A stretch of 35,824 bases of DNA from a virus: the IMG/VR virus record IMGVR_UViG_3300022562_001114, positions 1-35,824 of that record; one strand, given 5' to 3'. Both the position numbers and the translations under genes were made by a program. Below the pieces are notes generated by a model that was given only the letters and a program-made list of their open reading frames with translations, ran no database searches and was not told the origin of the DNA. Positions 6,622-8,856 of this stretch are shown here, piece after piece (the first letter of the stretch is position 1; the number at the start of each line of letters is the position of its first letter).

Positions 6622-8856
6622 ATGACCACAGCAGACAGGGCAGCAGTCGCCGCACGCGCCGCTGCCCTGCTCTCTGCCCAACTCCAACCACGCTGGCGAC
6701 CACTCCCACACCAGACGCCACCACCAGGAGACTGGTACGGATGGCTACTGCTCGCCGGCCGCGGCGCCGGAAAGACGGACGCATGTGCGGAGTACATCGC
6801 CCGCCACGTGGCAGGCCCGCCGTGTCTACCTGGCCCTGTGCCGCATTGGATCGGCATCATCGCCCCCACCCAAGGCGACGCCGTCACCGCATGCGTCTCC
6901 GGCCCATCAGGCATCAAAGCCCACGACCCCACCGCTGTCGGACCGATCACCACCGCAGGCGGCACCGTAGTCCGATGGCCCAACGGATCACAGGCCAAGC
7001 TCTACGGCGCCAACAACCCCGAGGACGTCGAACGCCTCCGAGCCGGCGGAAACACCTGTGTTGCCGAAGGCACCCTCGTGCGCACCGAGCATGGCCCTCA
7101 ACCTGTTGAGTCCATCGAGATCGGCGATCGCGTGTGGACCCGGAATGGGCTGCGTCGGGTGCTGCGTGTCTGGGACAACGGAATCAAGGAGGTTCGACGG
7201 TACGAGCACGAAGCAGGGCACGTATGGCTGACCCCCGACCATGAGATCTGGACCACAAGAGGCTGGATTCAAGCTCGCTTCGTTAAGCCAATTGATACAG
7301 TTACTACATGGAATCACCTGCAAAGTTCGTCATATACGACGGTGTCCGATGGTACGAGCGAGAGAGCGGCTACTACTCGAACAGTAGAAGAGGGCTGCTC
7401 CACCGATGGGTGTGGAGGCTGGAGCGAGGGGACATTCCGAACGAGATGCAGGTGCACCACCTCAACCATGACCGAGGCGACAACAGGATCGAGAATCTGG
7501 ATCTCGTCAGCAGAACCGAGCACTTGCGCATCCATGCCAGAGACTCTGAGTGGCATCGAAAGGGGGCTCAGGCCGCGTGGGCCAATGCAGAGTGGCGCGA
7601 GTTCACATGCCAACGATGCGGCGGGGTTGGACGCACGCGCGCTCCCCGGGAAGCCAAGTACTGCTCAGCCGCCTGCCGGGACCATGCGTCACGAGCACGG
7701 GAGCAACGGGTGTGTAGCGTGTGCGGCGCTAAGTTCGAGTGCCCCTCCAGAAATCCAACCCGCACCTGTTCGCGCCGGTGCACTTCGGTCTACGCCTACC
7801 AGCAGCGCGGCAAGGGTGTACGACCTGACAGTTGAGCACGACCACGAGTTCTTCGCTGGCGATCTCCTCGTGTCCAACTGCGTTGCGTGGCTTGAGGAGT
7901 TCGCCGCATGGCGGTACATGCAGGAGTCCTACGACCAGCTCCGCTTCGGCCTGCGCTCCGGGCCGCGCCCGCACTGGGTTGCATCGACCACGCCGAAGCC
8001 CAAGCACCTGCTGAAACGGTTCACGCAGGGCGACTTTCCCAACGTGACTGTGACCACGGCCACCATGTACGACAACCCGCACCTCCCTGCCCACATCAGG
8101 GAGATGCTTGAAGACGCCTATGCCGGAACCGACCTCGGCGAGCAGGAGTTGTACGGTCGGCTGCTCGACGAGATGAAGAACGCCCTGTGGCGGCGCAAGA
8201 ATCTTGCGGCCGGGCGGATCCCCGCCATGGATCTTCCGGACCTGATGCGTACCACAGTGGGTGTCGACCCGTCCGGCGGCGCCGGGGAACAGGGCATCGT
8301 CGTCACCTCGAAGACTGGACTGCTGCTGCCCGGTGTGCTTCCCGGTCCGGAGTTGGACGACGAGGAACGTACCGCGGTGAAGGTACTGCGGCCGCAGCCT
8401 CATGGCATCGTCCTCGATGACCGCTCCTGCCAGCTGTCTCCTGAGGGGTGGGGGGAACGCGCTGTGCGGGCCGCTATCGACTGGGAAGCAGATGACATCT
8501 GCGTGGAGGTCAACTACGGGGGGGACCAGGCCATTGCCGTCATCCGCACGGCTATGGAGAAGATCGGCGTCGACATCCCAGTTCGCAAGGTGCGGGCTAC
8601 ACAGGGCAAGGCGATCCGGGCGCAGCCGGTCGCTGCATTGTCGGCGCAGGGACGGTGGCATCACGCTGGCACGTTTCCCGAGCTGGAGGAACAGATGTGC
8701 ACCTGGTATCCGGAGCTTGGGTGGTCGCCTGACCGGCTGGACGGCATGGTGTGGGGGCCGTGGCATATGAAGCTGGTGGGCACGGTGACGGGCGGCCGTG
8801 GGTCGATGGGCTCGGCGATGGCTGGAAGACCGATCACTGGCGGGCGCGTACGGTGA
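6622..8856 (+). CDS. Terminase large subunit, interrupted in frame by an intein
   Basis: 744 residues translated; removing the intein (residues 146-419) leaves about 470, the normal size. LLLAGRGAGKT (about 45-55) is Walker A. The intein sits right before CVAWLEEFAAW, the Walker B/catalytic Glu segment. ASTTPKP is the coupling motif. The C-terminal RNase-H-like nuclease shows TVGVDPSGG, GIVLDDRS and VEVNYGGDQA acidic positions. It is the motor that packages and cuts phage DNA at the portal. ATG 6622 is used although GGAAG lies only a base or so upstream; no better in-frame start exists after the previous gene. Protein splicing is required for function. Confidence 0.92.
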   Translation: MTTADRAAVAARAAALLSAQLQPRWRPLPHQTPPPGDWYGWLLLAGRGAGKTDACAEYIARHVAGPPCLPGPVPHWIGIIAPTQGDAVTACVSGPSGIKAHDPTAVGPITTAGGTVVRWPNGSQAKLYGANNPEDVERLRAGGNTCVAEGTLVRTEHGPQPVESIEIGDRVWTRNGLRRVLRVWDNGIKEVRRYEHEAGHVWLTPDHEIWTTRGWIQARFVKPIDTVTTWNHLQSSSYTTVSDGTSERAATTRTVEEGCSTDGCGGWSEGTFRTRCRCTTSTMTEATTGSRIWISSAEPSTCASMPETLSGIERGLRPRGPMQSGASSHANDAAGLDARALPGKPSTAQPPAGTMRHEHGSNGCVACAALSSSAPPEIQPAPVRAGALRSTPTSSAARVYDLTVEHDHEFFAGDLLVSNCVAWLEEFAAWRYMQESYDQLRFGLRSGPRPHWVASTTPKPKHLLKRFTQGDFPNVTVTTATMYDNPHLPAHIREMLEDAYAGTDLGEQELYGRLLDEMKNALWRRKNLAAGRIPAMDLPDLMRTTVGVDPSGGAGEQGIVVTSKTGLLLPGVLPGPELDDEERTAVKVLRPQPHGIVLDDRSCQLSPEGWGERAVRAAIDWEADDICVEVNYGGDQAIAVIRTAMEKIGVDIPVRKVRATQGKAIRAQPVAALSAQGRWHHAGTFPELEEQMCTWYPELGWSPDRLDGMVWGPWHMKLVGTVTGGRGSMGSAMAGRPITGGRVR
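7057..7878 (+). other. Intein within the large terminase (274 aa)
   Basis: Starts with Cys (TGT at 7057) and ends with Asn (AAC at 7876-7878) followed by Cys+1. Block A: CVAEGTLVRTEHGPQPVESI and GDRVWTRNG. Block B: GHVWLTPDHEIWT with the TxxH motif. Blocks F/G: VYDLTVEHDHEFFAGDLLVSN. The residue before the terminal Asn is Ser rather than the usual His. The roughly 170 residues between blocks B and F (about 229-400) are Ser/Thr/Arg/Gly-rich and look like an out-of-frame reading of the HNH gene in the same stretch. Insertion point is the conserved ATPase core next to Walker B, a typical intein site. Confidence 0.9.
7308..7835 (+). CDS. HNH homing endonuclease nested out of frame inside the intein
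   Basis: 175 residues, one base back (-1) from the terminase/intein frame. The HNH core is complete: LHRWVWRLERGDIPNEMQ, VHHLNHDRGDNRIENLDLV, then RTEHLRIHA. Two zinc ribbons follow: CQRCGG with CSAAC, and CSVCGAKFEC with CSRRC. This is the usual layout of free-standing phage HNH enzymes. A TGA at 7293-7295 closes the frame just upstream, so ATG 7308 is the first start. No Shine-Dalgarno sequence; TACAGT lies 6 bases before the ATG. Codon use (AGA, ATA, CGA) is less GC-biased than that of the surrounding gene, indicating separate acquisition. Its last 30 bases overlap intein block F. Confidence 0.85.
   Translation: MESPAKFVIYDGVRWYERESGYYSNSRRGLLHRWVWRLERGDIPNEMQVHHLNHDRGDNRIENLDLVSRTEHLRIHARDSEWHRKGAQAAWANAEWREFTCQRCGGVGRTRAPREAKYCSAACRDHASRAREQRVCSVCGAKFECPSRNPTRTCSRRCTSVYAYQQRGKGVRPDS

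Follow-up and report, generated by a model that had tools for sequence, protein, structure and literature searches.

An HNH endonuclease gene nested out of frame within a viral terminase intein, and its relatives in phages and archaeal viruses

Canonical inteins (PI-SceI; LAGLIDADG) carry their endonuclease between the two halves of a Hint splicing domain and in frame with it. The intein described here likewise has a Hint domain with an endonuclease in that same place, but its HNH enzyme is encoded out of frame. Fractured genes, reportedly described by Dassa et al. in 2009, are said to combine split inteins with a free-standing endonuclease between the halves. They resemble our locus in having an independent endonuclease gene between intein halves, and differ from it in that our intein is unsplit and its endonuclease gene overlaps an uninterrupted intein frame. 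The HNH fold is shared with I-HmuI, a homing endonuclease from a group I intron in a phage. I-HmuI lies in an RNA intron, and translation through the intron is unnecessary. A 2025 preprint by Gosselin et al. (bioRxiv 10.1101/2025.01.02.630785), which according to its title concerns actinobacteriophage inteins with non-canonical architecture, is cited for overlapping reading frames. Judged by its title and this citation, it may deal with actinophage inteins whose endonucleases are out of frame, and may anticipate part of the present work; its title is limited to actinobacteriophages.

Out-of-frame HNH genes have also been described in phage DNA methylases as the ShiLan domain or Pacc40 insertion (Arsenault, Gosselin, Gogarten 2025, PMC11855218). 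The likenesses are an HNH gene out of frame in an open host gene, a proposal of leaderless initiation and a disjunct distribution (PMC11855218). No splicing domain was found there, and the insertion is thought to be retained in the protein (PMC11855218), whereas here the shadow frame belongs to a complete intein with its splicing domains present, and the locus does not qualify as a ShiLan-type insertion. In the text consulted, nested inteins are not surveyed over different hosts, nor is evidence given for a -10 element (PMC11855218). Our literature search, from which most subscription papers were absent, found no description of HNH genes nested in inteins in either sense or antisense orientation.

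The terminase intein and the gene within it

The window, a 35,824-nt stretch of viral DNA (IMG/VR record IMGVR_UViG_3300022562_001114), contains a terminase large subunit (TerL) gene interrupted by an intein, with an HNH gene inside the intein (Table 1). The window TerL is one open ORF and does not meet the definition of a fractured gene with a split intein. The insertion point is the Walker B site of TerL, between GGNT and CVAWLEEF. A position-1 nucleophile (C1), block B (TPDH, T59..H62), the C-terminal residues (VYDLTVEHDHEFFAGDLLVSN followed by C; S273 N274, then C) and a Hint fold together fulfil the definition of an intein. In the TerL frame, Pfam/NCBIfam profiles recovered Hint_2 at the N end and TIGR01443, the intein C-terminal splicing region, above its cut-off. 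AlphaFold gave the last 30 residues a pLDDT of 94-98 and placed them in a Hint fold with residues 1-80, while secondary structure was almost absent from the shadow middle (residues about 90-230). The model matched the splicing domain of the Mtu RecA intein and also the DnaB mini-intein. The empty-site relative L004 has the same TerL flanks and no insert; no clear co-conversion tract was found in it, identity being only mildly higher close to the insertion site. A nucleotide search among phages returned matches to the TerL exteins only.

Table 1. Positions of the features discussed in the text (window positions unless a relative is named)
Feature	Position	Strand	Remarks
terL, terminase large subunit gene, intein-interrupted	6622..8856	+	single open ORF; Terminase_6N E 2e-19, Terminase_6C E 1e-6
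Intein, 274 codons, TerL frame	7057..7878	+	C1, TxxH, terminal SN then C
Hint splicing domain, N-terminal half, residues 1-88	7057..7320	+	AlphaFold pLDDT 92-98 (residues 1-80); Hint_2
TGA stop in the HNH frame	7293..7295	+	shortly before the HNH start; speaks against simple frameshift fusion
Candidate -10 hexamer TACAGT	7296..7301	+	gap of exactly 6 nt to the HNH ATG; inferred leaderless promoter
Nested HNH_3 homing endonuclease gene (homing inferred), 175 codons, -1 frame	7308..7835	+	Pfam HNH_3 E 4e-17
Shadow stretch, intein frame, residues 90-230	7324..7746	+	predicted disordered, pLDDT about 40-52
HNH motif, HNH_3 residues 31-74	7398..7529	+	H50 H51 N59 N63 H72 invariant in 40-43 nested relatives
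First zinc ribbon, C101 C104 C119 C123	7608..7676	+	columns invariant or nearly so
Second zinc ribbon, C136 C139 C154 C158	7713..7781	+	at least 90% conserved
Hint domain, C-terminal half, residues 235-274, F and G blocks	7759..7878	+	pLDDT 82-98; TIGR01443
HNH stop TGA	7833..7835	+	falls within the F-block codons of the intein (Val-Glu)
Allele pair of inteins	L083:2501-2896; L093:3501-4535		near-identical archaeal virus TerL genes
Free-standing HNH genes	L082:2495-3136; L088:2408-3025; L040:1992-2609; L184:2414-3031		beside terL/terminase genes
Free-standing HNH genes	L185:1967-2590; L186:2408-2998; L189:2459-2899		beside terL/terminase genes
Intein of L031	L031:3076-4113	+
HNH gene of L031	L031:3278-3991	-

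A preliminary description of this DNA had placed a complete HNH and zinc-ribbon ORF wholly within the intein and shifted back by one base relative to an intein frame that stays open through it and resumes with good F and G blocks. Its coordinates and frame (here offset 2 of the intein frame), its HNH assignment (here to HNH_3) and the intact C-terminal half are all confirmed. The HNH protein was modeled with a pLDDT of 91.7 and fulfils the requirements for PF13392 (HNH_3), namely a profile match and the HNH catalytic residues. Its profile matches I-HmuI (1u3e) modestly (E 0.0024), and I-HmuI is also the top Foldseek match for the model, although a weak one (E 0.1). It cannot be classed as a canonical in-frame endonuclease: it lies at -1 in the window, and so does the HNH of each of the 110 distinct inteins with the offset-2 arrangement.

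The two overlapping frames evolve differently. In the HNH frame, substitutions reach 0.37 at third codon positions, compared with 0.20 and 0.17 at the other two, and 4-fold sites have diverged by 0.41, compared with 0.48-0.53 in the exteins and 0.52 in the intein-N domain. The third-position bias, together with 4-fold divergence near that of the flanks, points to purifying selection on the HNH and to only weak constraint on the amino acids of the shadow. The somewhat lower 4-fold divergence could also be taken to mean that the shadow stretch is a functional protein domain selected for its amino acids. This is highly implausible in view of its predicted disorder and of its mean identity of 0.19, which is below that of intein-N (0.35) and of the HNH (0.32).

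Relatives and the open intein frame

TerL homologues in IMG/VR include some with an empty site and others with the same intein; in L002, L003, L018 and L029 the HNH gene lies at offset 2, as in the window. Offset 2 is likewise the position of the HNH gene in another intein, which occupies the TerL nuclease motif (L008, L021-L024). Searches with the HNH and with the intein N domain, and a search of named phages, widened the collection, which includes many IMG/VR contigs. Nested HNH genes were also found in Tetrasphaera phage TJE1, Rhodobacteraceae phage LS06 and Acinetobacter phage Highwayman; in the named phage records TerL is the sole annotation at the nested locus. Carriers span actinobacterial, proteobacterial and archaeal viruses, and the GC content of the dual-coding relatives ranges from about 0.30 to 0.68. 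When a scan was guided by the HNH instead of the intein, 66 of 80 loci had the gene nested at offset 2 in a complete intein without an intein-frame stop; nine of the remainder were free-standing and five read as split genes. These shares are not population frequencies, since the scan retains the 80 loci that best resemble its nested queries. Genome contigs scanned with the intein-N alignment A4 yielded no complete nested HNH intein. L103 carries a second HNH gene of the same family (L103:3545-3943) close to the nested one.

The preliminary description would have been refuted by a relative whose HNH and splicing domains share one frame. None with a fused in-frame HNH was found among 110 distinct related inteins, while in related inteins bearing LAGLIDADG or DUF559/Vsr-like enzymes these enzymes are in frame. 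L239, flagged at offset 0 as an in-frame fusion, was rejected as such; it is a split gene with stops between its parts.

Taken alone, the window is only weakly surprising: the intein frame would be open over the HNH by chance with P 0.067 when synonymous codons are shuffled and P 0.024 when codons are permuted, so that relatives were needed to decide. Stops were therein counted and never applied as a filter in choosing inteins. Set 1 comprised 57 distinct inteins, among them L168 (L168:3501-4493), whose HNH-like match is the sole one in that set at offset 1 and is weak and short (70 codons, E 2.6e-6). Its intein frames contain no stop over the HNH region, where 118 were expected under synonymous shuffling and 190 under codon permutation; the third frame, as an internal control, has 785 against 817 expected. 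Set 2, of 54 further inteins, repeats this with no intein-frame stop (117 expected) and 933 third-frame stops (985 expected). Both sets together thus give 0 stops against 235 expected in 111 inteins. The P values overstate the evidence because related sequences were treated as independent.

Free-standing homologues serve for comparison. Those of the first set have 60 stops in the corresponding frame, and the single one without any, L164, was set aside as itself nested without a detected intein C end. Nine more have 49 stops in 1674 codons. With L164 excluded, the corresponding frame is open in no free-standing HNH relative. The openness of the intein frame across relatives is far beyond chance, and there is selection against stops in it.

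The preliminary description had allowed for a decayed intein kept open by chance, or for two sequencing indels that mimic a nested frame. The window's own P values are all that speaks for these alternatives, and they can practically be dismissed: the stop counts exclude the first, and the second is ruled out because independent assemblies, as well as the isolate genomes of TJE1, LS06 and Highwayman, show this architecture in the same phase. The reading that the preliminary description had preferred, an independent HNH gene inside an intein that tolerates a long shadow, remains the best supported.

The start of the HNH gene and its putative expression

Start codons of HNH genes were assigned by rule. 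Expected numbers of TANNNT hexamers were obtained by synonymous resampling of the intein codons. The motif stands exactly 6 nt ahead of the HNH start in 15 of 55 members of the first set (4.1 expected) and in 15 of 53 of the second (4.9 expected), or 30 of 108 against about 9 when pooled, while other gaps give 0-9 and 0-5 cases, respectively. Shine-Dalgarno (SD)-like 5-mers are present in 16/55 (8.1 expected) and 12/53 (8.0 expected), many of these cases being non-actinobacterial or lower-GC members. The HNH start of the window has the hexamer TACAGT and no SD. The codons at this hexamer (GAT, ACA and GTT) are minority choices in this TerL, where GAT accounts for 3 of 26 Asp codons, ACA for 3 of 31 Thr codons and GTT for 3 of the 30 GTT/GTC/GTG codons counted. 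Under these strict criteria, roughly half of the members show no clear SD and no TANNNT. L002/L043 and L047, the nearest Walker-B relatives, do not have T or TA in the first hexamer positions, and no clear -35 element was seen on inspection by eye. The evidence suggests an internal leaderless transcript for the HNH. Given starts assigned by rule, related sequences that are not independent and the many members without either signal, it supports such a transcript as a hypothesis only.

The preliminary description had also named frameshifting as an alternative. Under programmed -1 frameshifting the intein N half would be joined to the HNH, which would then be no independent gene. The nearly constant -1 position (56 of 57 in set 1, and the 66 complete nested loci of the HNH-led scan, split gene excepted) speaks for this, as do a few relatives whose HNH frame stays open a long way ahead of the gene. 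We nevertheless regard it as very unlikely. In 105 of 108 members a stop within the intein closes the HNH frame ahead of its start, the median distance being 4 codons (the open stretch begins at 7296 in the window), and only 7 of the 108 have a canonical slippery heptamer within the open stretch. SD or -10 signals at HNH starts exceed expectation, and free-standing and split relatives use a start of their own. The frame preference is explained more simply: about 2 intrinsic stops per HNH are expected in the intein frame and about 14 in the other, and because the frame has so few, nesting fixed at -1 needs no special mechanism.

Mobility, related arrangements and significance

The archaeal virus vir335 (L083) and L093 have TerL exteins that are 99.5-100% identical. 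Their inteins are nearly alike over the first 147 and the last roughly 66 nt; the middle is 176 nt without an HNH in one and 815 nt with a nested HNH in the other. These HNH-less alleles and the empty-site relatives (L004 and others) are no more than consistent with homing, and there are no data on cleavage. In L239, L246, L254, L255 and L263, TerL is split into TerL-N with intein-N, an HNH gene of the same family, and intein-C with TerL-C, the intein-C ORF overlapping the end of the HNH; these relatives do qualify as fractured genes with a split intein. The nested HNH of Highwayman is 51% identical to a free-standing one adjoining the terminase genes of Acinetobacter phage BP10. Co-inheritance of HNH and intein-N was measured by a Mantel correlation (r 0.56 overall; weak, 0.22, for distant pairs), and free-standing forms are scattered over the HNH tree with low support (6 changes).

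The free-standing HNH relatives whose surroundings are annotated adjoin terL or terminase genes, and HNH proteins are known as packaging components (Kala 2014, cited in PMC12613952). The HNH could on these grounds be a DNA-packaging accessory similar to HK97 gp74 and not a homing enzyme. We consider this unlikely, as HNH_3 with zinc ribbons resembles I-HmuI, and presence or absence in near-identical viruses, together with residence in an intein, fits homing.

A further arrangement came from L031, a TerL relative with a P-loop intein and an HTH+HNH_3 gene on the opposite strand (Table 1). Two further scans (L270-L286; L289-L361) found antisense nesting at the P-loop site (immediately before SGKT/S), always in one frame. 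Intein-frame stops numbered 0 in the 9 distinct inteins of the first scan (44 expected) and 0 in the 48 of the second (239 expected), where the other two antisense frames had 583 against 529 expected; many contigs are shared between the scans. Pfam confirmed both the intein and the HNH in one antisense example. L361:466-3549 (-) holds an antisense-nested HNH intein whose host resembles, by eye, a non-terminase P-loop ATPase.

Given the architecture and its conservation, the selection against intein-frame stops, the conservation of the HNH at the protein level and the predicted folds, all of which the analysis shows, the locus is very probably a mobile intein composed of a splicing module and an independent homing gene on shared DNA; splicing, expression, leaderless initiation, cleavage and homing are inferred. 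In this model frame 0 would yield a TerL precursor, in which the Hint halves (residues 1-88 and 235-274) would fold together and excise the intein from TerL, with the roughly 140 shadow residues between them tolerated as a disordered loop. Starting independently at 7308, the -1 frame would yield a distinct HNH protein that resembles I-HmuI and bears two zinc ribbons. Its transcript would most likely be short and leaderless, driven by a -10 element within the intein; many non-actinobacterial relatives may use an internal Shine-Dalgarno instead. The HNH would be expected to cleave intein-less terL alleles, upon which repair would copy the whole insert.

HNH-bearing phage inteins probably form an obligate two-gene class in which the HNH is never fused. 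It would lie at sense -1 in Walker-B and nuclease-motif TerL inteins or in one antisense frame in P-loop inteins, with signals of its own (a leaderless -10, an SD or an antisense transcript), and splicing and homing functions would be expressed separately. Beyond what the preliminary description had noted, the arrangement occurs widely, likely involves a leaderless promoter, and exists in split and antisense forms as well.

The inteins assembled here form a large and phylogenetically broad collection of long overlapping genes, with the third frame as an internal control. They show that a splicing element can carry its mobility gene without being fused to it, and suggest that inteins annotated as endonuclease-free deserve to be re-read in all six frames. 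The tolerance of the intein for a long arbitrary loop is relevant to protein engineering. Finally, the series of free-standing, nested, split and HNH-less forms allows a direct test of how endonuclease-bearing inteins arose.
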